This document shows positions 3,201-31,827 of a stretch of DNA of 31,827 nt, piece by piece. Under the pieces are notes generated by a model. That model was not told the DNA's origin. It made no database searches and saw nothing but the letters and a program-made list of their open reading frames with translations. The DNA is from a virus. Location: IMG/VR virus record IMGVR_UViG_3300037349_000044, positions 1 through 31,827 of that record. One strand, written 5' to 3'. Position 1 is the first letter of the stretch; each line of letters begins with the position of its first letter. The position numbers and the translations under genes are program-made.

Positions 3201-5815
3201 CTTTTATCCTCGATCTCTTTACCCAACTTATTAACCTTAGATATAAGAGTCGGTATACTTCGTCTCGTTGCATCTTTAATTAGTTGCATTGTTTTACGAT
3301 ACAATTTAGGATGATCTTTAAATGCCTGTCGGACTCGTTTAATTTCATTATAAGATGAATGAATTAACTGGGCTACTATAGGAGTTACAATTTTTCCACC
3401 TGGTAAAACTTGTCCAAGTGCTGTTCCGAATAATGCCCCTCCAAATTTATTAACTCCCTTAGCAAGTTTCTCAATATTACTTTGTAATCTTTCTTGAGCA
3501 GTTTTATCCTTCAATAACTTATCGTAATTTTCTTTACCTATGGCCTTTATAGCGTTTCGATGTTCGATTTCAGTAGCTTTAAATACCTGTTGATGTTGCT
3601 TAACTTCTGATTTGTGCGCTGACTCTGCAATCTGCTGTTCACGACTAAGTTCTTTTATATGCTGTTTTTGATCTGATACAAATTCTTTCTGACCACTCTT
3701 AAGTTTAGCTGCTTCTTTGTAGAGACCTTCTGCTTTACGCCATGGTTTATTATGTTTAGTGTTATTATTCTTGGTAATAAAGTCGTTAACTGAACTTACT
3801 ATTTTACCGGCATTTTCTCTAAATACAGAGCTCGAGTTCTTATCAAATATCTGATTATTGATGTTACGTTTAAGTATCTTAGCATCCCCAATACTCAGTT
3901 TACCGGCTGGATCTTTGGCCGTACTTTGCGTAGTCGTTTCTATATCTCGTATGATCTTTTCAAGTTGAACCATATCAGTCGTAGACATTCCCTTAGCAAA
4001 GTTATCGTTTACTTTGGTTGCTTCTTTATTGATAGAACTTGCTGAGAACTTACCAGATTCTTCATGTTTAGCAGCTTGTTCGTATAATGGTTTCATTTGT
4101 TGATAGTTCTCTTTGATCTTCTTGTCGTATGCCTTGAGCTCTTTTTGTGCTTTATTGATTGGTGTTTTTTCGGATAGTTTCTTACCAGCCGTGCTCAACT
4201 TACTCGATTCTTTAAGCAAACTACGTTCAGCATGATCATTAGTTTTAACAAGGTCCTTTATACGAGCGGCTTTATCTTTTTCAAACGCATCACGGGCATA
4301 TTTATCGACTGTCTTAGCACTAGGTCTATTTACTAAAGCGGATGCTCCCATACTGCCTAAAGCGCCACCAATTGCAGAACCAGTTTCACCTCCAAGTGCT
4401 CCTCCTAAAGAAGAACCTAGTTCTGTTCCTGTAGCTCCTGCTAATGCTCCCAAAGGAGATGAACCGCCTGCATAAAAAGAAGGAGCAATCTGAGAGATAC
4501 GACCTATAGATTTCTCTATGGCTGAAAGTTCTTCTGGATTTTCACCCATCATGCCAAGAAAATCCTGGGTTCCCTTTAACCCTAATTTACCACCAGATGA
4601 TTCATTAAGGATATCTCCCCATCCACCCATCATTGAGGCTAATGCATTACGACCAATAAGTCCCGGAAGTCCTGTGATCCTATCAAATAGACCTTTTTGC
4701 TTACCTTGGTTGCTTTGCATGGCATTTTGATCACCTTGTTGGTTATTTTCCGGGGTATCTTCAGGTCCATTATGCTGATTATTTAGGGTAGCTGCCTGAA
4801 ATGCTGCTTGTGGCGCATTTTCAGGGCTACCTTCACTACCTATACTCTTTTTTTTTTCATCGCCATAATCACCGGCGAGTATTCCTTGTTTACCTATGAG
4901 TCCATCAAGGATCCCTTGAAGCATTTCGATTTTAACGTCATTATCGACTTCAAGGTTGGGTAACTGTTTAAGCATTTGCTTGATTCTGAAATCGGTTACA
5001 CGACCTTCTATAAGACCAACAAGTGTCTCTAACTCTTTAGAATATTTTTGAGTATCTTTAGTTTGGGCTGGAGTGAATCCTTTTGAAAGCCATCCTTCAA
5101 CACCATTAACTACATTTCCACCTTTAGCTAATTGTAAAAGGTGTTTAACATTTTTAACAATTTGATTATTAGTATGCTTTTTTAGTGCAATTTCTTCTTG
5201 TTTTTGAGCATTCTCAAGTTGAATCTTCTTCAGTTTCTCTTGGTCTAATTGATTGAGCTGTTTCCCATTGGATGTTGATTGACCTAAAAGTTGAGCTGGA
5301 GTCATTTGACCCTTAGGTCTAGGTTGTGAAGATGGTCGTCTTACAGGGTTATTTTGACCAACCGATGGTTGTTGCTGCTGTTGTTGTTGATTGTTTCCTT
5401 GTGCATATTGATTAAGTATATCTTGTAGATTTTGCATGCCATTTTGTGGCCCACGAGCATTTACATCAAATGGTTGACCTTGATTTTGGAACATTTGCTG
5501 AACATTTTGACCCTGATTTCCCGACATTTGACTGTATTGTTCGGGCCCAGCTTCTTGTTGAGATTTCGCTGCAGAAAGTTGAGTTAAAATCTGAGCAAGA
5601 GCTTTTGGATTACTTTTAAATTGACCAGCTAATCCAGCTTCTTCTGGTGTATAACCCGCTTTTGTCAGGGTATCATTCCATCTTTGGTTTTCTTGCTTAC
5701 GTTGCATGGATTCAATTTTACCTTGAACTAAGTTATTAAGACCTCCAGATATACCCTGTCCGAGTAATTCTGAGAGTCCACCAACCCAGCCCTTATCTTG
5801 TAATACTTGTGCCAT
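3197..5815 (-). CDS. Large coiled-coil virion protein, candidate ejection protein
   Basis: This 872-aa protein has distinct zones. Residues 1-90 are helical with a Gly-rich start. Residues about 90-180 are rich in Gln, Asn, Pro and Gly with a run of Gln. A helical Lys/Gln/Leu-rich stretch follows. Around 440-500 there is a Gly/Ala/Ser-rich hydrophobic segment with GxxxG-like spacing (for example LGSSLGGALGG). From about 510 to 770 it is strongly charged and probably coiled coil, then hydrophobic again (GALFGTALGQVLPGGKIV) and basic at the end. Large helical proteins with membrane-compatible segments encoded beside podovirus tail genes are often internal ejection (pilot) proteins. That role is inferred here; no muramidase motif is visible. 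The gene starts one base after the end of the preceding Gln-rich gene. Confidence 0.65.
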   Translation of the reverse strand: MAQVLQDKGWVGGLSELLGQGISGGLNNLVQGKIESMQRKQENQRWNDTLTKAGYTPEEAGLAGQFKSNPKALAQILTQLSAAKSQQEAGPEQYSQMSGNQGQNVQQMFQNQGQPFDVNARGPQNGMQNLQDILNQYAQGNNQQQQQQQPSVGQNNPVRRPSSQPRPKGQMTPAQLLGQSTSNGKQLNQLDQEKLKKIQLENAQKQEEIALKKHTNNQIVKNVKHLLQLAKGGNVVNGVEGWLSKGFTPAQTKDTQKYSKELETLVGLIEGRVTDFRIKQMLKQLPNLEVDNDVKIEMLQGILDGLIGKQGILAGDYGDEKKKSIGSEGSPENAPQAAFQAATLNNQHNGPEDTPENNQQGDQNAMQSNQGKQKGLFDRITGLPGLIGRNALASMMGGWGDILNESSGGKLGLKGTQDFLGMMGENPEELSAIEKSIGRISQIAPSFYAGGSSPLGALAGATGTELGSSLGGALGGETGSAIGGALGSMGASALVNRPSAKTVDKYARDAFEKDKAARIKDLVKTNDHAERSLLKESSKLSTAGKKLSEKTPINKAQKELKAYDKKIKENYQQMKPLYEQAAKHEESGKFSASSINKEATKVNDNFAKGMSTTDMVQLEKIIRDIETTTQSTAKDPAGKLSIGDAKILKRNINNQIFDKNSSSVFRENAGKIVSSVNDFITKNNNTKHNKPWRKAEGLYKEAAKLKSGQKEFVSDQKQHIKELSREQQIAESAHKSEVKQHQQVFKATEIEHRNAIKAIGKENYDKLLKDKTAQERLQSNIEKLAKGVNKFGGALFGTALGQVLPGGKIVTPIVAQLIHSSYNEIKRVRQAFKDHPKLYRKTMQLIKDATRRSIPTLISKVNKLGKEIEDKS

Positions 5816-6916: not shown

Positions 6917-9157
6917 TTATTGCAATCTACTACTAGGTGTTGCACTGATTGAAAGAGCATGCATCTCAAATGGAGCGTATGCAGTAGCAACATTAAGTAA
7001 CTGTGCCAAGTTGTAGTAGATCCTAAATTGTATTACTTCTCCGTCACCTTGAAAGTAAACAGGATGCCATACGCGTGATGACGTTGCTTCATAGGGGTAT
7101 AACGCAGTATAGGGAAAAAGATCTAATGTACCCGTTCCTAGTAGTGCTCCTGTGAGTTCCGAAGTATCAGTCATGGATGTCTCATCAGTTGCTACTTGAT
7201 AATCTACTTGTATCTGTCCTGTTCCTGTTGTTGATACCATGAAGTCTATCTTAGATATGTATGCATTCCGTCCGTCTTTGGCATAGAAGTTAAACTCTTT
7301 AGTCTGGATATCTATTTGTGCTATGGTGGCAAGAGTTCCACCGCCGGTATAAACGCCTGAAAGAAGGGTATCTTCATTATAATTTACAATAAAGGTGTTC
7401 TGATTAGGGACCATCGTTATCTGCGATGGAACGCCATTAATCGTTGCGCCTATGTTTCCTGTATCAGCTATATTATTAAGAGTAACTACCTGATCTTGCG
7501 ACAGGTTATGGTTGATACACGTCACCGTAACCATGTAACCAGTACCGCCTGTTGAGGTAAGAGTAAGATTATTTATGGCAAGATTAGGACTATTAGCTGG
7601 TAACGTAGAATCAAGTATAAAGGTCCATCCTTGCTGGTTACCGCCGATTACATCGCGGAACCCAGACTGTGCCGATCCATCATCCCATCTTAATTCTGAT
7701 TGCCATGGTGTATCTGAGGACCATAGAATACCTGTAACGGGCTGAAAATAGCCCATACAGGTTATAGATTCATCATTAACTGCCCATGAGTTGTTTTCAT
7801 AGTTATAAACAAGTACAGCATTCGGATAGAGTTGGGTCACTGATTGTTCATTACTGGGAAAGTTCCAGTACACAAGTTCGGTGTAATAATCTCTGATTCC
7901 TGAAACGCGAGCAGGCCCATTGTTTGACTGATTAATTTCAAATACCTGATCCGGTATATTGGCATCAATACGTTGGGTCTCAAACCCATTGCAAGAATGT
8001 ATACCAACGTTGCCTATACCAAGAGCGAACTTATCAAATGGAACGACTGAGAAGGGGGAATAAGCGCCTAGTTCAGTATTAATCTTTTGGAAGACAAATG
8101 GATTTGCGTTGTTGCCCGTGAATGCTATTTCCCAGGTCGAACGCTCGAAGAATACAATCAGACGATCCTTTACAAATTCTACCGTGATAATTGCTTCTGT
8201 TGTCGCAGCGTCTATGAAGTTACCGTTACCGGGAAGATCTTGATTCCAAGCATCAGCAAACGTTGGAGAGCCAAACCCTGAATACCTACATCTATTTTGA
8301 TAGTTAACACCAGGTTTATCAGGCCCCTCAAAGGTATTAAACGCAAGCATACAGTTCTTGAAGACGACAAGGATCTGGGCAGATAGAAGATAATTAGGAA
8401 CTTCGTCTATTTGCGGATAAAAGAAATACCACGATCCATTGTAGAGATATCGCATATATTCATTAGAGTTAAAGTTAGTAACAAAGAGTGCTTTCTGCGA
8501 AGGGTTGGCATCATACCACATTGTACCCCAGAAGAACTCTGAGTCATTACCTGACCAGGTAGCAGCTCCTGCATTACCGGCAGCTTCAGTGGCAAGTCTT
8601 TGCCACCCAGTTTGATATTGATAAGCAAATTGGGTATCGAATGCAATAACCGGTTCATTATTAAGAACAATCGTATCTTCTGAGAGTATACCCATAACTG
8701 GAGTACCTGGATAATAGTAAACAGTTCCTACTCCTGCATCAACTAAAGTGATATTTCCATTTGTTGTATCAAATGTCCCTTCCGCAGAACTATTTGATAA
8801 CATGAGTTGATTTCCTAGAGCTACAACCGTAAACCATTCTGTTATAAGATTAGGTCCAGACATATATTGAATACTTATTTGTTGACCAATCTGAGTAAGA
8901 TTATTAACTCCAGGAGCCGTAAAAAATTGTGAACCTCCTCCTATTACGTTTGTTCCAATATTTACACGAAGACGAGTCAATGTTTGATCAGTCGTATGAG
9001 TCAAATAGTCTGTTCCAAATCTCTTTTTAACACGTCCACGCCATACATATGCATTCTGAAGGAAACTGAACGCATTATCAGGAATGAGCCATGGAAGTCG
9101 ATTTGTCTGTAGACCTGAGTTCTTATCTATAGGTGCAATCAAAAACTTATCTGCCAT
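6917..9157 (-). CDS. Tail hub/nozzle-type protein (746 aa)
   Basis: This is the largest beta-rich protein of the tail block. The N-terminus, LQTNRLPWLIPDNAFSFLQN followed by a basic VKKRFGTDYL segment, is like the opening of podovirus tail nozzle or stabilisation proteins (T7 gp12 or P22 gp10 type), where a channel is decorated by beta-propeller blades. Repeated short motifs such as GNVGIHSCNGFETQRID suit a propeller. At about residues 525-610 is a module with the pattern VTVTCINHNLSQDQVV then NGVPSQ, also found in two neighbouring virion proteins. The nozzle assignment is inferred from size, composition and position directly after the adaptor and fibre-tip genes. It abuts the upstream gene with one base between. 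Confidence 0.6.
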   Translation of the reverse strand: MADKFLIAPIDKNSGLQTNRLPWLIPDNAFSFLQNAYVWRGRVKKRFGTDYLTHTTDQTLTRLRVNIGTNVIGGGSQFFTAPGVNNLTQIGQQISIQYMSGPNLITEWFTVVALGNQLMLSNSSAEGTFDTTNGNITLVDAGVGTVYYYPGTPVMGILSEDTIVLNNEPVIAFDTQFAYQYQTGWQRLATEAAGNAGAATWSGNDSEFFWGTMWYDANPSQKALFVTNFNSNEYMRYLYNGSWYFFYPQIDEVPNYLLSAQILVVFKNCMLAFNTFEGPDKPGVNYQNRCRYSGFGSPTFADAWNQDLPGNGNFIDAATTEAIITVEFVKDRLIVFFERSTWEIAFTGNNANPFVFQKINTELGAYSPFSVVPFDKFALGIGNVGIHSCNGFETQRIDANIPDQVFEINQSNNGPARVSGIRDYYTELVYWNFPSNEQSVTQLYPNAVLVYNYENNSWAVNDESITCMGYFQPVTGILWSSDTPWQSELRWDDGSAQSGFRDVIGGNQQGWTFILDSTLPANSPNLAINNLTLTSTGGTGYMVTVTCINHNLSQDQVVTLNNIADTGNIGATINGVPSQITMVPNQNTFIVNYNEDTLLSGVYTGGGTLATIAQIDIQTKEFNFYAKDGRNAYISKIDFMVSTTGTGQIQVDYQVATDETSMTDTSELTGALLGTGTLDLFPYTALYPYEATSSRVWHPVYFQGDGEVIQFRIYYNLAQLLNVATAYAPFEMHALSISATPSSRLQ

Positions 9158-18387: not shown

Positions 18388-18421
18388 TGCCACGAGTCCA
18401 ATCTTCTAACAACTCGTGGCA
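18388..18421 (-). terminator. Hairpin beyond the MTase 3' repeat
   Basis: TGCCACGAG (18388-18396) pairs with CTCGTGGCA (18413-18421), a perfect 9-bp stem with a 16-nt loop. On the minus strand ATCTATATTTT follows, so it can act as a rho-independent terminator for the methyltransferase message. Confidence 0.55.
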
Positions 18422-18480
18422 CACTTTCATCTACGCTGATGAAATTTCTCGGAAGAGATGATAAATTTTCTAATACTTAA
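18402..18480. repeat. 79-bp direct repeat, copy 1 (3' of MTase)
   Basis: This segment is identical over 79 bp to 19603-19681. It contains the hairpin TTCATC-TACGCT-GATGAA (18426-18443) and ends in CTAATACTTAA, the reverse complement of the last codons and stop of the terminase gene. Together with copy 2 it brackets the methyltransferase gene. Confidence 0.9.
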
Positions 18481-18500
18481 TCGTTATATCGAATACACAG

Positions 18501-19499
18501 TTAAATATTAACTTTTTGTATGATTTTTGGATCATCAAAGCGGACACGTGATTGCTCAACATATGAATCTTGAATTTCTATTGATACCCATCTTCGATCG
18601 GCCAATGCAGCTGCAAATCCTGTAGTATTGCTTCCAGCAAAGGGATCTAGAACCAGGTCACCTTTATTTGTCAGAAAATTTATAAAGAAGGATGCAAGGC
18701 CAATTGGCATTCTTGCAGGATGAGGGTTTAAACCTCTTTGCTTACATTCACGGATAAAAAAGCTACCAGAGTCGGTATTAGCCATGGAAAACACATTAGG
18801 TAGTCGGATTTCTTTAATTGGATCTATTGCTTCGACCTCAAAGACATTGTGCGCTATGGCACCACCATGATCTTTAAGGAAACTCTTTTCTCCTATAATG
18901 TGTTCCGATGGTCTTTTTCCAGCATTATAGCTTGCTCGTTTTAGCAAAGACTTCATCGATTTACTGTAGGGCCGAAGAACTTGTGCATTGTCTGCTTTCG
19001 GGAAATCAGACTTAGCTAACCACCATACATGAGTAAAGCTATCAACGGTTCTAATCCGATTGACGGTTACCCACTGAGCTGGTGATGGAAGTCTCGATGG
19101 ATTATAACAAATAAATTGTTGAATCAATTTTAGATTTGCATCTGGGTGTTCTGTAAAGCCTAAAAGTGCCTTCATGTGCAACAAGGATTGAACTGGGCGA
19201 TCGTGTTCCCAGGCATTTCCAATCTCAAGCACGATTGAACCATCATCAGTTAGAAGATTAGAAAAAATAGGAGCCATGGAAATAAACCACTGGAGATATT
19301 TATCACCAGTTAGATTTCCATAACTTTTTTTACTGTTAAGTGGATAAGGAGGTGAAGTAATTATTAAATTTATTTTGCCTTTTAACATTTCTAACTGTTG
19401 ACCATTAAGTAACGATAGAGAGTCGCCAAGAAGATATGCACCTTCATGCGAAGCGTGCATTACAAGATCTTGAGGAATAAGGTTCACGATATTTTGCAT
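18501..19499 (-). CDS. DNA N4-cytosine/N6-adenine methyltransferase
   Basis: The 332-aa protein has the two hallmarks of an amino-methyltransferase. Catalytic motif IV is TSPPY at residues 48-52 and the AdoMet-binding motif I is DPFAGSNTTG at 285-294, with Asn where Gly is more usual. Motif IV comes first and motif I near the C-terminus, the beta-class order, so residues about 110-270 should hold target recognition. TSPPY occurs in both N4-cytosine and some N6-adenine enzymes, so the target is unclear. No restriction nuclease gene is adjacent, so it is an orphan, probably protecting phage DNA from host restriction. It stands between identical 79-bp direct repeats, which points to insertion as a cassette downstream of terL. 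The ribosome site is weak. Confidence 0.85.
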   Translation of the reverse strand: MQNIVNLIPQDLVMHASHEGAYLLGDSLSLLNGQQLEMLKGKINLIITSPPYPLNSKKSYGNLTGDKYLQWFISMAPIFSNLLTDDGSIVLEIGNAWEHDRPVQSLLHMKALLGFTEHPDANLKLIQQFICYNPSRLPSPAQWVTVNRIRTVDSFTHVWWLAKSDFPKADNAQVLRPYSKSMKSLLKRASYNAGKRPSEHIIGEKSFLKDHGGAIAHNVFEVEAIDPIKEIRLPNVFSMANTDSGSFFIRECKQRGLNPHPARMPIGLASFFINFLTNKGDLVLDPFAGSNTTGFAAALADRRWVSIEIQDSYVEQSRVRFDDPKIIQKVNI

Positions 19500-19602
19500 A
19501 CTTCAATAGCCAAATTTTATAGTTCAAATTCTTATACAATTTCTTAATGTTGCTATATTACCATTTTGAAGAAAATGGTGTTATCTTTTTAAAATAATCA
19601 TT

Positions 19603-19681
19603 TCTTCTAACAACTCGTGGCACACTTTCATCTACGCTGATGAAATTTCTCGGAAGAGATGATAAATTTTCTAATACTTAA
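19603..19681. repeat. 79-bp direct repeat, copy 2 (5' of MTase)
   Basis: Identical to 18402-18480 and 1201 bp away from it. The repeat runs directly into the partial terminase end at 19671-19695, with which it shares CTAATACTTAA. Confidence 0.9.
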
Positions 19682-19695
19682 ATGATTTGTCCAAT
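19671..19695 (-). pseudogene. Duplicated 3' end of the terminase gene
   Basis: On the minus strand this 25-bp segment encodes LDKSFKY followed by TAG, exactly the last seven residues and stop of the terminase at 19986-20010. The two differ by one synonymous base (GAC versus GAT). The remnant shows that a terminase end, possibly from a related phage, was joined behind the 66-aa gene. Confidence 0.8.
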
Positions 19696-19985: not shown

Positions 19986-22481
19986 CTAATACTTAAATGA
20001 TTTATCCAATATCAAAGGGATCTTGGGTCTATTACCATAGAGTGCTTCTGCTTTCTTGCGCTCGAACTCTTCAGGGGTTAGACCTCTGACTGTCTTATAC
20101 AATCCCTGACACATATATCTAACGCTATCCATGTAATTCGAGGCCCAGTTGTGCACGGGTTTAGCGCCATAAACCTGACGTTGTTCGTTCCATTCGTAGT
20201 AGTAGTTCTCGAATGCATCAATGAGTGATTTACATTTGGTCTGATCTATCCACATCTTGGGCATGTGAGTACGAACATTCTCAATACCATCTTCTATTGA
20301 TGCTTGAGGAAGTACCGTAAAGGTAATACCCAACTGTCTAGCTTTCTCATACCGTGAAACGGCCCCCCCGCCAAATTCACGGACAGCTATATCGTGAGGA
20401 GCGATATACTTGTCCATCTGGTATGGTTTACGGGACATAATGTCAATGTAATGATCAAGACCGAAACCGAAGTTAGAATAACAATCTATAATTTTAATGA
20501 TAGAGTTATTTGCTATCGTCTGAAACCAGATCAATGTAGTAGCGTTATTCTTGCCACTCACGCCTATATCCATAGCAACATGTGTCAATAGTCCCGGTTC
20601 CCATGAAACGTTCGTTATACGCGATTCTTGACGCATCTTTTCAAGGTCTCTGCCATACACACAACCATCTACACCTTGTATGAAGGAACATTCATACTCT
20701 TGCATGTACTTTTCGTGACTCATCTGAGAACGTTCCAACTCGAGGATCTCCTCGTCAATGTGCTGGATCTCTGATGTCTTCTTGAGTGTCACCCACCAGT
20801 CATCTAATTCAAGACAGGTTACATATTGTCTCCATACATGGTTTTTACCCCATGGTGTTGTAAGAAATATCACGACTCCGTCGTTAGCGGCCAGCATGGG
20901 CCGCACGACATCGTATGCAGCTTCAGATTCACAATACGCCCACTCAGAGAATATGACCATGGATGCATTAACACCACGCATAGAGTCATACTGATTAGAT
21001 CCAATAAGGCGGATGATAGAATCGTTCTTGAATGTTATCTTGAGTTCAGATTGGTTGAGATTAGCGATCAGTTGCTTAGGTATATAGTCGAGGAACTTCT
21101 TACCATCAATGGTAATACCATCCCATATTACTTTCTTCGCATCAGTAAATGTAGGTAAGCAATAGAATATAAGACAGGTCTTGCGTAGAGCGTGGCGTAT
21201 AGCGAGATTGAATGTAGATATATCTTTACCTGAATTGTGTACGAGGAATCCATTTGCTATGAAGTTATGGTTCTTTTCAGTTTCAATATCATAAAGTTCT
21301 TCTGGTGCTGATTCAGACAAGGTAAACCTAGACATGAAACATGATTTGATCTTACTGAATCTACGCGTTATTTGAGAAGCATAGTCCAATGCATCTTCCT
21401 GTGCTTGTTCTTTCCCATAGACGCGAACATTAGATAGGAGACGATATATATCTCTTCTTTTTGCTAGTTTGACCTTCCAATTAGACCTATTTCTCTCTGG
21501 GTAAGGATATTGGGGCAGAAGACCAAACTTTCTTAATAACCAATAAATATCCCATGCGTACAACTCACTACTACCACAATTCAATGTAATCTCTAAACCA
21601 GGAGGGATTGTATTCCCCGTATCTTGAGCGGTGAACCCTGACTTATGCAGGTATATATTACCGTCTCCAGATATGAGGGCAGCAAAGAAATGAAGCAAGG
21701 ACCACTCATTAAAGTCCCAGATAGATGCGGGTAATCGTCTTTCGCTCTTAGGGACATCAGCACCTTCTTGTCTAAATAATTCTTTAATGGGATTCTTGAA
21801 TGTTCCACCACCACGTGTCTTATTGGAGAAACCTAAATCAAATCCATTACCCTTAGCACGTTCTATAACTGATACATCAAATAGTTTTAGAGCAAGTTCT
21901 GTAACTCTATCAAGAATGACTCTATTGGTATTAGTGAACTTAGGTTGTTGATATCCTGACACATATCCATCAGAGAGCATAAACCCCCAGAAAGAAGCGA
22001 GGTCGGAGTTATTAACAGATCCATATTTAAGACCACCATAATGCATGAGAGATCTATTGGGTCCGATATCAGTTATTTTATCGAATACAACTTTAGATGC
22101 TAATGAGGTAACATGGGCAAACTTATGATCTTTAGAAGTGATTAAAAATTGATGACTAAGAGAAGATACCTTGACTGTATCCTTAACACCAGTTGCCCAA
22201 TGGTTCTTAACTATATCTTCTTCAAAGGATTCGCCATTCCATGACAATATCTTATCACCAGAAATAATATCTTTTAGATACTTAAATGAACCATTACTCA
22301 TAAGTATATGAGACGAACCAGAAAGACATCTTCTGGGCCATATGGCCAGAATTTTGCGGTAACCGTGATTTTCACAACTATCCCAAAGTTCTGATTGATA
22401 ATCCCGTAAACTGAAGTCATCAAGTACTAATCTGTCTTCTACATTCATAGCGTCCCAATATTCTTTTCCATTACAACCCAT
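19986..22481 (-). CDS. terL: Terminase large subunit interrupted by an intein
   Basis: The 831-aa precursor is the ATP-driven DNA packaging motor plus a 365-aa intein at residues 52-416. Splicing would leave 466 residues, normal for TerL. Joined exteins read AIWPRR-SGKDIS, the Walker A loop, so the intein sits inside the nucleotide-binding site. Walker B is seen as VIFSEW (509-514) and the coupling motif as LTTPWG (540-545). The nuclease domain has AMDIGVSG with Asp638, and NYMDSVRYM with Asp785, as in RNase H-like terminase nucleases. Without splicing the ATPase cannot form, so packaging depends on the intein. The upstream 79-aa gene overlaps the start by 11 bases. The last 25 bases are repeated downstream. 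Confidence 0.93.
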   Translation of the reverse strand: MGCNGKEYWDAMNVEDRLVLDDFSLRDYQSELWDSCENHGYRKILAIWPRRCLSGSSHILMSNGSFKYLKDIISGDKILSWNGESFEEDIVKNHWATGVKDTVKVSSLSHQFLITSKDHKFAHVTSLASKVVFDKITDIGPNRSLMHYGGLKYGSVNNSDLASFWGFMLSDGYVSGYQQPKFTNTNRVILDRVTELALKLFDVSVIERAKGNGFDLGFSNKTRGGGTFKNPIKELFRQEGADVPKSERRLPASIWDFNEWSLLHFFAALISGDGNIYLHKSGFTAQDTGNTIPPGLEITLNCGSSELYAWDIYWLLRKFGLLPQYPYPERNRSNWKVKLAKRRDIYRLLSNVRVYGKEQAQEDALDYASQITRRFSKIKSCFMSRFTLSESAPEELYDIETEKNHNFIANGFLVHNSGKDISTFNLAIRHALRKTCLIFYCLPTFTDAKKVIWDGITIDGKKFLDYIPKQLIANLNQSELKITFKNDSIIRLIGSNQYDSMRGVNASMVIFSEWAYCESEAAYDVVRPMLAANDGVVIFLTTPWGKNHVWRQYVTCLELDDWWVTLKKTSEIQHIDEEILELERSQMSHEKYMQEYECSFIQGVDGCVYGRDLEKMRQESRITNVSWEPGLLTHVAMDIGVSGKNNATTLIWFQTIANNSIIKIIDCYSNFGFGLDHYIDIMSRKPYQMDKYIAPHDIAVREFGGGAVSRYEKARQLGITFTVLPQASIEDGIENVRTHMPKMWIDQTKCKSLIDAFENYYYEWNEQRQVYGAKPVHNWASNYMDSVRYMCQGLYKTVRGLTPEEFERKKAEALYGNRPKIPLILDKSFKY
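21234..22328 (-). mobile_element. Intein with LAGLIDADG homing endonuclease in TerL
   Basis: The intein begins with Cys52 (block A, CLSGSSHILMSNG) and ends with YDIETEKNHNFIANGFLVHN, the classical blocks F and G with penultimate His415, terminal Asn416 and Ser417 as the downstream nucleophile. Block B-like ITSKDHKF is at 114-121. Between the splicing blocks are two LAGLIDADG-type motifs, LASFWGFMLSDG (161-172) and LHFFAALISGDGNI (263-276), each with the acidic residue needed for DNA cleavage. All splicing residues are present, so the intein looks active. Homing endonucleases of this type copy the intein into intein-free alleles, here at the conserved Walker A codons of terminases. Confidence 0.93.
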
Positions 22482-25487: not shown

Positions 25488-26573
25488 TCATTCGTGTTTG
25501 GGAGAGGTGGGGTGTGTTGGGGGATTATCGGACGTTTTAAGGTAGTGGAGGATCTTCGCTCGGTCTTCATCTGTGTATTCAGGATGAGGCCACATACTCT
25601 TAATGCCATCAGAAATACTATAAGGACCATTAAGTTTCTTTTTCCATAGTTCAGGGTTGTTCTTTTTTAAATCGAAACACATTGCTATGAGTTTCGATTG
25701 TTCGATAGACAAATCTCTTGGATCGACTTCTGGTTGGTAAAATCTAAGATCAATTCGTTTCTTAGTCTCCGATTCATTCCCTTTGATGGGCTCGTTTACT
25801 TTACTAGCATGATTCTGTTGGCCCCTTGTATTGGGCAGCTCAAGTTTATGCGAGCTGGTCCCATTCTGGACTCTGTTCCCATAAGGGTTGTTCCAATTTG
25901 GAAATAGAGTTCTATACTCTTCATAATCTTCTTTTGCCATCTCTCGTTCCTTTTCAACGATTGAATTGTCTATTTCAGGGGCGTTCCCCCTGAACCATGT
26001 AACATATGGGCTACCTGGGCCTCCGTAGGTTAGGCCCAAGGTTGCCTCCCGTATCTCTTCAGACCTCTGACCATGTAACATGGCCAAGGTTCTCTTAGTA
26101 TGCATAGTAGATAAGTCTATAATATTATTATCTGACGATAATATTATATCCTTATTAACTATAGGTAGGTTTTTTCCAGTCTGGCAATTTCTAGGCAGAT
26201 AAAAAGAAGTATTGTTACAAGAATAAAGATTGGGCATCAAAGGTAGTAAGAGGAACACGATCCTCCTCAAATACTTTGTCGCTTGATAAAGACATGTCCT
26301 TTTGACCCCACGATGAATAACTTTGAAGAATCCACGATCTTTGAATTCTTTGATCCATTCGTTAACGGTATCTTTATGGGCACCCACTATCTTAGCCATA
26401 GTGATCTGAGACATAAAGAAAGAGCTCTTAACCATGACATTGTTGGTTATAAATTCAAATAGATGGTTTTTCTGTTGATTAATAGATTTAATGACTGAAT
26501 AAGTTTCTTGAGTTATTTTAGGACCGACAATCTTTTTTTCAGATCTTCGTTGACAACGGCTCCGATTCATCAT
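25488..26573 (-). CDS. Winged-helix replication initiation-type protein (361 aa)
   Basis: The N-terminal 110 residues hold a helix-turn-helix with wing: MSQITMAKIVGAHKDTVNEW, then IKEFKDRGFFKVIHRG. This is the usual fold of phage and plasmid replication-initiation or DnaD/O-type proteins. The middle (about 115-290) is low in recognisable structure and includes SSHKLELPNTRGQQNHAS, a fragment of which is duplicated in inverted orientation at 26876-26990. The C-terminus (RFYQPEVDPRDLSIEQSKLI, then LWKKKLNGPYSISDGIKSMW) is a helical domain of the kind that can contact helicase. The function is inferred from this arrangement. It is the first large gene of the minus-strand operon. Confidence 0.6.
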   Translation of the reverse strand: MMNRSRCQRRSEKKIVGPKITQETYSVIKSINQQKNHLFEFITNNVMVKSSFFMSQITMAKIVGAHKDTVNEWIKEFKDRGFFKVIHRGVKRTCLYQATKYLRRIVFLLLPLMPNLYSCNNTSFYLPRNCQTGKNLPIVNKDIILSSDNNIIDLSTMHTKRTLAMLHGQRSEEIREATLGLTYGGPGSPYVTWFRGNAPEIDNSIVEKEREMAKEDYEEYRTLFPNWNNPYGNRVQNGTSSHKLELPNTRGQQNHASKVNEPIKGNESETKKRIDLRFYQPEVDPRDLSIEQSKLIAMCFDLKKNNPELWKKKLNGPYSISDGIKSMWPHPEYTDEDRAKILHYLKTSDNPPTHPTSPKHE

Positions 26574-26779: not shown

Positions 26780-26868
26780 GCAAATATAGCTTAAGTGAGC
26801 GTTAACTCACGCTGGTAGAGCACTCCCTTTGGCGGGTGGCGGTGTTGGTTCGAATCCAACTATTTGCA
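26780..26868 (+). tRNA. tRNA-like gene, best read as Pro(TGG), with D-loop insertion
   Basis: The acceptor arms GCAAATA (26780-26786) and TATTTGC (26861-26867) pair over all seven bases. T8-A9 follow, and the D-stem is GCTT with GAGC. The T-arm is GTTGG-TTCGAAT-CCAAC (26844-26860), perfect. The anticodon arm CTCCC-TTTGGCG-GGTGG has one mismatch and one G-U pair, placing TGG (26830-26832) as anticodon; C37 and G38 are unusual. The D-loop is 25 nt instead of about 8. Removing TGAGCGTTAACTCACGC (26796-26812) leaves a canonical AAGTGGTA loop. The inserted part can form a 5-bp hairpin (GTGAG with CTCAC). CCA is not encoded. It may be a functional odd tRNA or a decaying one. The isotype is uncertain. 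Confidence 0.6.
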
Positions 26869-26875
26869 TTCTATA

Positions 26876-26990
26876 ATGGGGGCAACTCTCATAGACTCGA
26901 GTTGCCCAATACAAGGGGCCATCAAAATCATGAAAGTAACAGAACGAGGACAGGCCCATCAAGGGGAAAAAGAGAATGTCCATATCAACC
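26876..26990 (+). pseudogene. Inverted, diverged fragment of the replication gene
   Basis: On the plus strand this segment can be read as NGGNSHRLELPNTRGHQNHE, matching NGTSSHKLELPNTRGQQNHA in the middle of the minus-strand replication protein (DNA about 25745-25867). The match includes GCCCAATACAAGGGGCCA. It begins within ten bases of the tRNA-like 3' end and stops near 26990, where another frame starts. It is a non-functional duplicated piece in opposite orientation. Confidence 0.75.
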
Positions 26991-27459: not shown

Positions 27460-27507
27460 GTTTGAATCCAGAATCCAACGAGATTTATCCGTTGGAGTAT
27501 GTCAATT
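27460..27507. repeat. 48-bp inverted repeat, left copy
   Basis: This copy is the exact reverse complement of 28449-28496. Inside it, TCCAACG and CGTTGGA form a 7-bp hairpin. It overlaps the stop codon of the 99-aa minus-strand gene. Confidence 0.92.
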
Positions 27508-28247: not shown

Positions 28248-28449
28248 AGTTAAAGATTTAGAACTACTGGTCAGATTGGCAATGTTAGAAATACAAGAAG
28301 CGTGCCACGAATTCAATAAAGAGAATAGTACTTATCAAGCCTGTGCACCTCGTGAAATAACCTTTGAACACGAATTTAATCCTTTGCAGCATCAAAAACC
28401 AACAAGAATAACATTTTCAGTAGCGCTACATCCTAAATATCAGAGATAA
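28240..28449 (+). CDS. Small hypothetical protein ending at the right inverted repeat (69 aa)
   Basis: It begins MSKVKDLELLVRLAMLEIQE, similar to the start of the 92-aa protein, and then differs: TFEHEFNPLQHQKPTRITFS. AAAGGATAAAA before the ATG is a suitable ribosome site. The stop codon touches the first base of the right 48-bp repeat. No family is recognised. Confidence 0.6.
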   Translation: MSKVKDLELLVRLAMLEIQEACHEFNKENSTYQACAPREITFEHEFNPLQHQKPTRITFSVALHPKYQR

Positions 28450-28496
28450 ATTGACATACTCCAACGGATAAATCTCGTTGGATTCTGGATTCAAAC
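28449..28496. repeat. 48-bp inverted repeat, right copy
   Basis: Exact reverse complement of 27460-27507. After it the right side continues AGAAACTGC, which in the left copy follows only after a further 47-nt GC-rich segment, so the right arm has lost that segment. Confidence 0.92.
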
Positions 28497-29383: not shown

Positions 29384-29661
29384 CACCAAGACGCAGGATA
29401 CTCAATAGAATCAATGGATACCTTGAATGTCTAAACCACTATTCAGACAACAAGGATCATAACCGATATAAATTCTACGCTCGTATGTTGTTTAAGACAC
29501 ATATGACCGAGCAGATATTTAAGAGCTACTACCCAGAATCACATAAAGAGATAACAGCAGCTATAGAGGAATGGGATAAAGAATTGCATGAACAGCAGAT
29601 TAAAACATATAACTTGCCAGAGAGCGCCCCTAACGGTATCTGGCGTGGAAAGAAATATTGA
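29380..29661 (+). CDS. Hypothetical protein upstream of recT (93 aa)
   Basis: A helical, charged protein starting MTPRRRILNRINGYLECLNH and containing RYKFYARMLFKTHMTEQIFK. The ATG overlaps the stop of the gene before (ATGA) and its TGA lies one base before the recT start. No motif suggests a function. The tight operon arrangement makes an early recombination or replication role possible. Confidence 0.5.
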   Translation: MTPRRRILNRINGYLECLNHYSDNKDHNRYKFYARMLFKTHMTEQIFKSYYPESHKEITAAIEEWDKELHEQQIKTYNLPESAPNGIWRGKKY

Positions 29662-29662
29662 T

Positions 29663-30337
29663 ATGAATACTTTGCAACACCCAGAGTGCAAGAACAATGA
29701 CGCACTCTTATCAGGCATTATAGAAGATATCAGAAAGTTGAATGAGCGGTTCGATAAGATGGCAATCGCATTCAAGGACAAATCCGTACCTAAGAAACCT
29801 GGTACTTCTTTCGATGACAAACAATTAGAACTCATTAAATCAGTTGCCGCTGTGGGCGCAACTGATAATGAGTTAAAGAACCTACTCTATCTTGCTGAGC
29901 AATATGATCTCGATCCATTAAAGAAAGAAATCATATTCATCAAGGGACGTAATGCACTGACCACCAGAGATGGTCTTCTTAAGATCGCTAATCGTGATCC
30001 CCAGTTTGATGGTATAGGGGGCGATGTAGTCTATGAAGGTGATACGTTAGCCAAACGTGATAATGAAAGTATTCATATCACGTATGGCACTGAGCACTTG
30101 GTATTCAATAAAGAAAAGATCAAAGGAGCATTTGCAAATGTATATCGAAAAGATAGATCAAAGTGCACAACAGTATTTGTATCTTTTAAAGATTATTTTA
30201 AAAAAAGTACCACCAATACTCCAAGTATTTGGGAACAATTCCCCAACGCTATGATACTTAAGGTAGCAGAGTCGATGGCACTTAAGAGAGCGTTCTCATT
30301 AAGTGGATTAACGAGTCAAGAAGAGATGGGTGAATAA
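29663..30337 (+). CDS. recT: RecT/Bet-type single-strand annealing protein
   Basis: The 224-aa protein would pair complementary single DNA strands during phage recombination. Visible features are YLAEQYDLDPLKKEI and FIKGRNALTTRDGLLKIANR, the usual RecT/Bet core (a strand, then LTTRDG and the K-A-x-R helix), QFDGIGGDVV, and the C-terminal WEQFPNAMILKVAESMALKR then AFSLSGLTSQEEMGE, where the family has WxxxPxxMLxKxAxxxALRxAF followed by a T-x-E-E-M tail. The start at 29663 is the first ATG after the previous stop; an open frame from 29588 overlaps that gene and lacks a ribosome site. Its 3' end is duplicated twice downstream. Confidence 0.85.
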   Translation: MNTLQHPECKNNDALLSGIIEDIRKLNERFDKMAIAFKDKSVPKKPGTSFDDKQLELIKSVAAVGATDNELKNLLYLAEQYDLDPLKKEIIFIKGRNALTTRDGLLKIANRDPQFDGIGGDVVYEGDTLAKRDNESIHITYGTEHLVFNKEKIKGAFANVYRKDRSKCTTVFVSFKDYFKKSTTNTPSIWEQFPNAMILKVAESMALKRAFSLSGLTSQEEMGE

Positions 30338-30591
30338 TGAGTATCTGGGTATCAATTAAAGATAAACTCCCAGACGATAATCAGGAATGGGATTGGGTCC
30401 TCGTGGGTTGTATTCAAGATAATTATATGACTGCATGGACAATAGCGCGGTACTCTCTTTCTTTAGGATGGGAATTCTTTGATGAACCTATAACTACTAG
30501 TTGTCCTTACGCAGGTGATTCTTTAAGCTATATTTCAATTGACGATATTACTCATTGGATGGAAATAGAAATGATTAAGGAGGAAGAATGA
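30337..30591 (+). CDS. DUF551-type small protein (84 aa)
   Basis: The N-terminus MSIWVSIKDKLPDDNQEWDW followed by VLVGC matches the DUF551 pattern WIxVxDxLPExxxxVLV, and the end DDITHWMEIEM gives the usual closing TxWM/THWMP segment. The family is common in phage early regions and has no known function. The gene's ATG overlaps the recT stop (TAATG), so translation is coupled to recT. Confidence 0.75.
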   Translation: MSIWVSIKDKLPDDNQEWDWVLVGCIQDNYMTAWTIARYSLSLGWEFFDEPITTSCPYAGDSLSYISIDDITHWMEIEMIKEEE

Positions 30592-30635
30592 CAATAAAAG
30601 AACTCATAGATCAACTCGATATCCAACAACAAATC
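30588..30635 (+). pseudogene. 5' fragment of the 117-aa gene, fused to recT debris
   Basis: The start MTIKELIDQLDIQ is identical to the beginning of the 117-aa gene at 31299 (at least 39 bp identical). After about 13 codons the sequence changes to recT-derived DNA in another frame and stops at TAG near 30702. It is a truncated copy, not a functional gene. Confidence 0.85.
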
Positions 30636-30843
30636 AAAGATCAAAGGGGCCTTTGCAAATGTATACCGAAAGGATCGTGCACAGTGTACTACTGTGTTTG
30701 TTAGTTTTAACGATTATAATAACGGTCAAGGTGTTTGGCCACAGTTTCCCAACGCTATGATATTGAAGGTAGCAGAGTCTATGGCATTAAAGAGAGCGTT
30801 CTCATTAAGTGGATTAACAAGTCAAGAAGAGATGGGTGAATGA
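30636..30843 (+). pseudogene. 3' fragment of a second, diverged recT
   Basis: The frame reads KGAFANVYRKDRAQCTTVFV then VWPQFPNAMILKVAESMALK and ends GLTSQEEMGE with TGA. It corresponds to recT 30115-30337 but has many silent changes and a different, shorter loop (NDYNNGQG for KDYFKKSTTNTPS). It therefore comes from another recT allele, not from a simple local duplication. The frame remains open, yet it has no proper start. Confidence 0.85.
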
Positions 30844-31076
30844 TGAAAGAATCAATAAAACTTACCGAATTTTTTGATATTTTCTATAGTGTTTTAGAAA
30901 TAGCAACCATGGAAAAAGAAAGATTGAAAGAAATGATAAAGGAGGAGCAAGAATCTTTACGACCCGATCAAAGCGAAATTGACTCAATTTGGAGCATGGT
31001 TAGATATGAAGATGGCCGTATAGGCGTATGTACATACGCATTAGAAAAAGCCAAGGAAATAGGTTTATGCACATAA
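30843..31076 (+). CDS. Small charged hypothetical protein (77 aa)
   Basis: The protein starts MKESIKLTEFFDIFYSVLEI and is mostly helical and acidic, with EKERLKEMIKEEQESLRPDQ. The ATG overlaps the stop of the recT fragment (TGATG), in the same relation that recT has to the DUF551 gene. An ATG three bases upstream is possible. It is flanked on both sides by recT 3'-end pieces, so it is an inserted accessory gene. Function unknown. Confidence 0.55.
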   Translation: MKESIKLTEFFDIFYSVLEIATMEKERLKEMIKEEQESLRPDQSEIDSIWSMVRYEDGRIGVCTYALEKAKEIGLCT

Positions 31077-31090
31077 TATGGTCCGAGCAG

Positions 31091-31111
31091 GAAGAGATGG
31101 GTGAATGATGA
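31091..31111 (+). repeat. Third copy of the recT 3' end (21 bp)
   Basis: GAAGAGATGGGTGAATGATG plus A is identical to 30826-30846 and differs by one base from the recT end at 30320-30340. All three copies lie directly before the start codon of a different small gene and include that start codon and its purine-rich leader. Confidence 0.85.
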
Positions 31112-31302
31112 AGATAAATGAATATCTGAACGTAGAAGAAGCAGCACAATTTCTTGGGGTGACAGCCAATACTCTTAGAAACTGGGATTATTCTAAGAAA
31201 TTAATAGCCTATAGAAATCCCCATAATAAATATAGAATGTATAAAAAAGAAGATCTTGAAAAATACCTTGAGGGAATTATTACTGTCAGGGAATGGAAAT
31301 GA
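31108..31302 (+). CDS. MerR-type helix-turn-helix protein (64 aa)
   Basis: YLNVEEAAQFLGVTANTLRN followed by WDYSKKLIAYRNPHNKYRMY and KKEDLEKYL is the winged helix-turn-helix of MerR and excisionase-type proteins: VxEAAxxLGVxxxTLRxW, then a K-L-x-x-x-R turn and Y-R-x-Y-x-x-x-DL. Such short proteins regulate transcription or act as recombination directionality factors. With no integrase in view the role is open. The ATG at 31108 follows a copy of the recT end; ATG 31105 is an in-frame alternative. Confidence 0.8.
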   Translation: MKINEYLNVEEAAQFLGVTANTLRNWDYSKKLIAYRNPHNKYRMYKKEDLEKYLEGIITVREWK

Positions 31303-31652
31303 CAATAAAAGAACTCATAGATCAACTCGATATCCAAGTTAGACAAACATTTGATGAATACAATGATCTCCATAGACAACTTCATCAGTATGGATACAAG
31401 GACCTTAGTGACGAAGACCATGCGAAAGCTGTCTACTTGATAGGGCTCATTGATGATAAATATGCTGAGATACATCCAGCATTCAGTTATGTTGGTCAAC
31501 GGTATGAGCATGTAGCAAAGGTAGTTCATTCACATTTAGATTGGGTAGAGAGACTTAAAAAAGCAGTATCAATGACGGGTACCAAAGAACAAGCAGAAGA
31601 GATACTTAAACGAGCTCAACAGAAACCACAAGAATTAAATATTGTACATTAA
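31299..31652 (+). CDS. Hypothetical protein before the ERF-like gene (117 aa)
   Basis: The protein begins MTIKELIDQLDIQVRQTFDE and is helical throughout, with ending KEQAEEILKRAQQKPQELNI. The start at 31299 is supported by the duplicated copy at 30588, which preserves exactly this ATG, and by ATGA overlap with the MerR-type gene; an ATG six bases upstream is less likely. No family is recognised. The duplicated 5' end shows that DNA beside it has been copied during rearrangement. Confidence 0.6.
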   Translation: MTIKELIDQLDIQVRQTFDEYNDLHRQLHQYGYKDLSDEDHAKAVYLIGLIDDKYAEIHPAFSYVGQRYEHVAKVVHSHLDWVERLKKAVSMTGTKEQAEEILKRAQQKPQELNIVH

Positions 31653-31747: not shown

Positions 31748-31827
31748 ATGGAGATACGTAAATCACAATCCGATGACATCGGGTTGATCTCATTAGCGCT
31801 GTCTAAAGCACAAGGTACCTATAAAAC
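31748..31827 (+). CDS. Start of an ERF-family-like annealing protein (partial)
   Basis: Only 26 codons are inside the window: MEIRKSQSDDIGLISLALSK then AQGTYKT. The I-x-x-L-x-x-A-L-x-K-A-Q pattern matches the N-terminal start of ERF-type single-strand annealing proteins (LxKALxKAQxE). An AAGGGAG site lies five bases upstream. Position at the end of the recombination gene series agrees. Because so little sequence is visible, the assignment is tentative. Confidence 0.5.
   Translation, partial: MEIRKSQSDDIGLISLALSKAQGTYK

Follow-up and report, generated by a model that had tools for sequence, protein, structure and literature searches.

The origin of mosaicism in phage genomes is debated, with homologous recombination at short boundary sequences on one side and random illegitimate joining on the other (PMC3945230, PMC3029335). 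A short conserved junction sequence has been proposed to guide recombination in mosaic phages (discussed in PMC3029335), and annealing proteins of the Red-beta and Erf groups are described as recombining short diverged sequences and creating mosaics (De Paepe 2014, PMC3945230). Repeated elements at gene borders include the PeSLs of T4-type phages, mobile regulatory cassettes made of a promoter and a terminator stem-loop (Arbiol 2010, as cited in PMC4503421), and the start-associated sequences of cluster K mycobacteriophages, a genome-wide 13-bp motif (PMC3203893). Homology-facilitated illegitimate recombination has been reported in E. coli conjugation (PMC3240628) and proposed for the T6SS immunity-gene arrays of Vibrio cholerae, where alleles are gained sequentially (PMC5361080).

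The locus described here lies in a viral metagenome contig (IMG/VR record IMGVR_UViG_3300037349_000044), of which positions 1 to 31,827, hereafter the window (31,827 nt), were analysed. Between recT and a 117-aa gene, three small genes stand in series, separated by pieces of the genes that flank them. We read this arrangement, with a probability of about three in four, as three slot alleles concatenated by misaligned recombination between phages, the flank scraps being the scars of the process. It shares with homology-facilitated illegitimate recombination an illegitimate joint and old and new alleles in series with remnants of neighbouring genes, and it may share a homology anchor on the opposite side. 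It differs in that the setting is a phage genome and the slot runs from recT to a small core gene, scraps of both flanks are kept, and the mechanism is one that we infer from its product. The features of the locus are as follows.

29588-30337, + strand: recT, single-strand annealing protein (PF03837 2.8e-29, phrog_2780 2.9e-30), likely start ATG 29663; left flank of the slot
30317-30341, + strand: recT tail copy 1, the recT 3' end with its stop and the overlapping start of the DUF551 gene
30337-30591, + strand: slot allele A, DUF551-family gene (PF04448 8.7e-5)
30587-30626, + strand: right-flank scrap, the first 39 nt of the 117-aa gene plus 1 base, 100% identical to 31298-31337
30627-30843, + strand: foreign left-flank scrap, the last ~72 codons of a diverged recT (recT'), frame open, startless
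30840-31076, + strand: slot allele B, 77/78-aa gene, no relatives known
31088-31112, + strand: recT tail copy 3, 24 of 25 nt as in copy 2
31105-31302, + strand: slot allele C, HTH_17/MerR-like DNA-binding protein of 65 aa (PF12728 5.8e-12)
31299-31652, + strand: intact 117-aa gene, right flank of the slot, conserved in the family, 58-59% identity to the closest relative
31749-31827, + strand: start of an ERF-like gene, truncated by the contig end, matching the ERF-like gene of the closest relative in position and sequence

The recT tail GAAGAGATGGGTGAATRATGA has just three exact matches in the window, at 30320, 30826 and 31091, against 0.01 expected by chance as judged from shuffles; no other record in viral_contigs contains the exact pattern. 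Over 25 bases, copies 1 and 2 differ at two positions and copies 3 and 2 at one. Start codons overlap or abut the stops of the tails (ATG 30337, 30840/30843 and 31105/31108), and the preliminary description was thus right on both the three recT ends and the starts that they set. Among all 44 predicted genes of the window, a systematic scan detected copies of the 3' end just for recT and terL, so these two sites were not cherry-picked by eye; all copies lie downstream of the source gene and on its strand. The predicted Shine-Dalgarno strength of the recT tails is only moderate (-4.6 to -4.9 kcal/mol), and a translational role for them is plausible.

Allele A runs into a chimera made of the 40-nt scrap of the 117-aa gene (30587-30626) and, from 30627 on, the 217-nt 3' piece of recT'. 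The join is out of frame because the recT' frame is offset by one base; it had been noted as such before, with a copied gene start of 39 bp that is corrected here to 40 nt. A Pfam RecT match (4.3e-6) covers 30694-30843. When recT' (30628-30843) is compared with the local recT, 37 of the 213 aligned bases differ (19 synonymous, 18 non-synonymous; dN/dS 0.17), and the recT' loop is five codons shorter. In simulations of neutral decay of the fragment, 80% hit a stop codon and the stop-free ones changed at least 17 residues; the actual number of amino-acid changes, 10, was matched by none of them. To judge from this pattern, recT' was a working gene of another phage, under purifying selection, while it diverged. 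The earlier attribution of the piece to another phage is upheld by the dN/dS, the shorter loop and the simulations, which point to a foreign piece and not to a decayed local duplicate. The last 28 codons of recT' are closer to the local recT than the preceding part (dS 0.29 vs 1.07), hinting at either a later exchange or constraint on the tail.

The two halves of the chimera are unlike in divergence, with 0/40 differences in the scrap of the 117-aa gene vs 37/213 in recT' (p 0.0013). Since the scrap is identical and recT' is diverged, a single local duplication cannot account for both. A tandem duplication of the whole recT-to-117-aa region, followed by decay or divergence in place, would agree with the tandem order and orientation of the repeats, but it is contradicted by the mismatch between the halves, by a startless recT' fragment with synonymous-biased divergence and a five-codon loop difference, and by intervening genes that are unrelated to one another. 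We regard such a duplication as extremely improbable.

Each of the three slot genes is preceded by a recT tail, the cassettes beginning on the recT stop. At the other border, the TGA of the DUF551 gene falls inside the ATGA start of the 117-aa copy, and that of the HTH_17 gene within the ATGA start of the intact 117-aa gene. Each unit therefore bears the borders of one slot, and the DUF551, 77-aa and HTH_17 genes are best read, on their sequence, as alleles of that slot placed in series. The 77-aa gene (78 aa counted from the first ATG) ends at 31076 and is followed by an intergenic gap, the next recT tail starting at 31088; it has no Pfam or PHROG match and no relative in viral_contigs. A 262-aa slot gene of another record, L146, has an N-terminal part related to the HTH_17 protein (1.3e-20).

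The preliminary description had attributed the array to serial cassette insertion. In one form of this reading, mobile gene cassettes were inserted one after another at the recT 3' end, for instance by a site-specific or homing process, each copying the local tail. Three tails beside one core gene are in keeping with this, as are the 79-nt direct repeats around a methylase near terL and a LAGLIDADG-like gene in the terL-portal slot of a relative (G004), both described below. However, the second tail consists of 217 nt of foreign recT and is no copy of the local one, the other flank, the 117-aa gene, has also left a scrap, and the cassettes contain no recognisable integrase, transposase or nuclease. 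The window proteins searched (small ORFs in part) likewise yielded no integrase or transposase, and the HTH_17 protein matches transposase and excisionase families through its HTH domain only. Repeats at this and the other sites treated below vary in length (24, 40, 79, 96, 111, 125 and 217 nt), and instead of the constant ends of an inserted unit, 24 to 217 nt of a sequence that differs per site were found. Cassette insertion is thus judged unlikely, and the preliminary wording is replaced here by the concatenation of alleles, because scraps of both flanks are present and each allele carries its own recT tail.

The closest relative, IMGVR_UViG_3300027860_000020 (G001; recT 66% and 117-aa protein 59% identical), is the sole relative with a recT-to-117-aa slot. 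Its slot is scrap-free and holds a fourth, different content, an HTH_3 gene and a 78-aa gene, followed by the 117-aa gene and an ERF-like gene (L002 6468-7151; PF04404 3.2e-5, just under the cut-off). Eleven further relatives with the 117-aa gene were found; no recognised recT lies ahead of it in the stretches examined, and they are therefore unusable as donors. Among phage records, there was no DNA match to the slot region and no match to the 117-aa protein, and RecT matches were only distant. Of two recT scans of genome_contigs, one gave no relative and the other distant ones only, mostly RecT of Halanaerobiales. A search for other genomes in which recT directly precedes the 77-aa or the HTH_17 gene, suggested in the preliminary description, yielded no donor in the viral_contigs, phage records and genome_contigs searched. 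Of the two outcomes that it had set against its own reading, the absence of donors thus holds for these collections, and an equal divergence of the three tails from one local ancestor is contradicted.

A second set of gene-end repeats lies in the slot between terL and the portal gene.

19986-20010, - strand: terL 3' end, source of this set of tail repeats
19671-19695, - strand: copy of the terL 3' end (24/25), after a 66-aa gene
19603-19681, - strand: left copy of a 79-nt perfect direct repeat, the last 12 nt of terL plus an intergenic hairpin, upstream of the methylase
18501-19499, - strand: N6/N4 DNA methylase (PF01555 7.8e-31) inserted in the slot, missing from the slot of the closest relative
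18402-18480, - strand: right copy of the 79-nt direct repeat, just ahead of the portal gene

On the minus strand the order is terL, 66-aa gene, terL-end copy, 79-nt repeat, methylase, 79-nt repeat, portal. The terL-portal spacing is only 60 nt in G001, and the spacer of another relative (L101) is similarly short. The earlier suggestion that the same logic operates at terL is thus supported by 79-nt repeats carrying a terL tail around the methylase and by an unoccupied site in G001. The hairpins of the repeats fold strongly (z -4.3), with no recognised T-run. An Rfam search of the window gave tRNA only, so the hairpins belong to no catalogued family. No excess of promoter- or terminator-like signals was seen at the recT or the terL slot when scored irrespective of the host sigma factor.

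The methylase and the right-hand terL joint are also present on a separate contig, L071 (99.84% identity over 8.8 kb), which stops at the left edge of the 79-nt repeat. Its end could reflect a polymorphism in the population, although assemblers break at repeats anyway. An assembly chimera of co-existing strains also has to be considered: the window is a metagenome contig, the recT joint is known from this one contig, strains of the virus exist, and L071 ends at the repeat. Nevertheless, the sequences joined at 30626/30627 have no long k-mer in common by which an assembler could be misled, the methylase and right-hand terL joint are repeated in L071, and the same architecture occurs in other contigs (see below), making a chimeric assembly very unlikely.

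Several further observations concern terL and its slot. TerL of the window (19986-22481, - strand) contains an intein at about residues 53-416 (Intein_splicing 2e-9, weak LAGLIDADG); TerL of G001 is intein-free and continuous, with 84% identity in the main extein. Two phages carry different DNA methylases in the terL-portal slot, each within long near-perfect direct repeats (L213 6717-8921, 96 nt; window 18402-19681, 79 nt). In L146, the slot encodes a protein (4984-5772) that combines a MerR-type HTH with an RNA polymerase alpha C-terminal domain, possibly a transcription factor mimicking alpha. In G004, a 23-nt repeat around TTTGTGGCAACT occurs in three copies in the slot (L058 2886-3411), two of them after terminator-like hairpins, beside the LAGLIDADG-like gene, of 164 aa.

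Other repeats were noted elsewhere in the window. A perfect 48-nt inverted repeat (27460-27507 / 28449-28496, arms 941 nt apart) surrounds a change in transcription direction, and G001 has one copy of it at ~91% identity (8539-8592). Part of a 361-aa replication-like gene has an inverted copy at 78% (25777-25865 and 26875-26968), directly after a tRNA gene at 26780-26868. An imperfect 165-nt tandem repeat lies within a 651-aa gene (1445-1774), with a diverged form in G001.

Recurrence was assessed in relatives gathered by portal and terL searches and reduced to 115 non-redundant records (1.52 Mb). The full architecture, X-Y1-Z'::X'-Y2-Z, in which scraps of both flanking genes X and Z separate two alleles, occurs in two of these besides the window. 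In L081, upstream of terL, X and Y1 are followed by a piece of the Z start (61 nt, identical), a piece of the X end (125 nt, 90%), Y2 and Z, with a 3-nt overlap between the two pieces. In G005, a Fic-family allele and a 91-aa allele are arranged in this way, and the right-flank scrap is 91% identical. With repeats of at least 78% identity counted and local shuffles as the null, 3 records were observed vs 0.57 expected (p 0.009); an earlier run on a partly different record set gave 5 vs 0.34. Matches in L193 and L180 fall in repeat-rich or paralogous genes and were excluded, as were those in L121, G006, L084 and L086, which are weak or unclear. Partial forms comprise a 111-nt terL end (94%) after the MerR-type gene with an RNA-polymerase alpha C-terminal domain in L146, 96-nt repeats (98%) on both sides of a further DNA methylase in the L213 terL-portal slot, a 34-nt perfect gene tail flanking a DUF551-like gene on both sides in L208, and a 41-nt copy of the terL start in L190. 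The proposal that gene gain beside core genes is a general mode is strengthened by these cases.

Short repeats are concentrated at gene borders more widely. Both copies of non-intragenic repeat pairs lie at gene boundaries in 29/61 cases vs 3.7 expected, about eight times above expectation, with a maximum of 12 in 2000 simulation runs. Eight reference phages show a similar density, mostly from Lactococcus phage 98101 and including one T7 promoter pair; the footprint is therefore not special to this phage family. In phage 98101 (L223), a 106-nt repeat (99%) lies at two gene borders (8322-8427 and 8779-8884), the short gene between the copies being annotated as dUTPase. Tandem paralogues account for some of the boundary repeats (L131; DUF551 arrays in G002 and L121), so these repeats are not all scars. 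Between boundary repeats, DUF551 genes appear enriched (5/26 vs 20/1348, p 7e-5), which we take as a lead only; in 3 of the 5 cases (one in G002, two in L199) the repeats may stem from DUF551 copies lying nearby.

Many boundary repeats contain a ribosome-binding region and a start codon, and the same test detected the T7 promoter pair. Both fit a reading in which the tail repeats are selected translation-start or transcription modules, comparable to start-associated sequences or T7 promoters, and no recombination scars at all. The repeats nevertheless hold out-of-frame tails of neighbouring genes and long coding pieces (217, 125 and 111 nt) for which a start signal has no need, and we consider it highly improbable that they are such modules alone. 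Like start-associated sequences, they are short repeats at the translation starts of many small genes; here, in contrast, each is private to one gene border, and no single genome-wide start motif was found, the 3'-end repeats being confined to recT and terL. To PeSLs, as far as these are outlined in PMC4503421, the resemblance is gene gain beside a repeated expression signal at gene borders, the difference being that the repeat is a coding tail with a start region or, at terL, an intergenic hairpin. No promoter plus terminator stem-loop was found in the repeated unit at either slot by the same scoring.

The observations described above have led us to propose a model for the origin of the recT array. 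A variable slot between recT and the 117-aa gene would hold different alleles in different related phages, its genes beginning on the recT stop and ending on the start of the 117-aa gene. During co-infection, recombination out of register between such genomes would then have joined alleles A, B and C in series: recT, DUF551 and the start of the 117-aa gene first, then the recT' end with the 77-aa gene, then a recT'' end with the HTH_17 gene and the 117-aa gene. The outcome would be one genome with three alleles and scraps of the flanking genes as separators. Most likely, the near-identical right-hand flank served as the anchor, with an illegitimate joint at the other end. Right-flank scraps, compared with the intact gene of the same record, are identical in the window (40/40) and L081 (61/61) and 91% identical in G005. 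A one-sided anchor with an illegitimate joint opposite fits because the halves of the chimera are unlike, the right-flank scraps are identical in two cases, and homology at the joints is near zero (0 nt in the window, 3 nt in L081); the divergence pattern of recT' indicates that DNA was acquired from another genome. An identical product would result from a crossover of two genomes that was illegitimate throughout.

Help may have come from annealing proteins of the phage itself, the window phage having both a RecT and an ERF-like gene. Such a role is plausible, given that phage recombinases of the Rad52-like type work on sequences that are short and diverged (PMC3945230). The sections of that paper on relaxed recombination treat in-register exchange, however, and concatenated alleles are not described in them. 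Among the scraps that persist is the recT 3' end, which positions the start codon of the next gene, so that each added gene could stay translated.

Unlike the boundary sequences of mosaic phages, the junctions here are duplicated and diverged, and the event can therefore be ordered and dated. Duplicated flanks record both types of end in one event and can be found automatically in any genome. As reference phages show a similar density of boundary repeats, the array is a variant of known phage mosaicism, each event in it ordinary, and no new system. Concatenated alleles might also be a regular and reversible stage of phage gene exchange, in which partial duplication of the flanks lets a phage carry several alleles, each translated from a copy of the core-gene tail, and later lose any one by homologous recombination between scraps; this wider proposal is speculative and, in our estimate, rather doubtful. 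Duplicated flanks provide a countable footprint of gene gain and predict that a slot can be reset by deletion between scraps. That a few reference phages have a similar density suggests a general footprint, and phages seem to gain genes recurrently through the concatenation of slot alleles.
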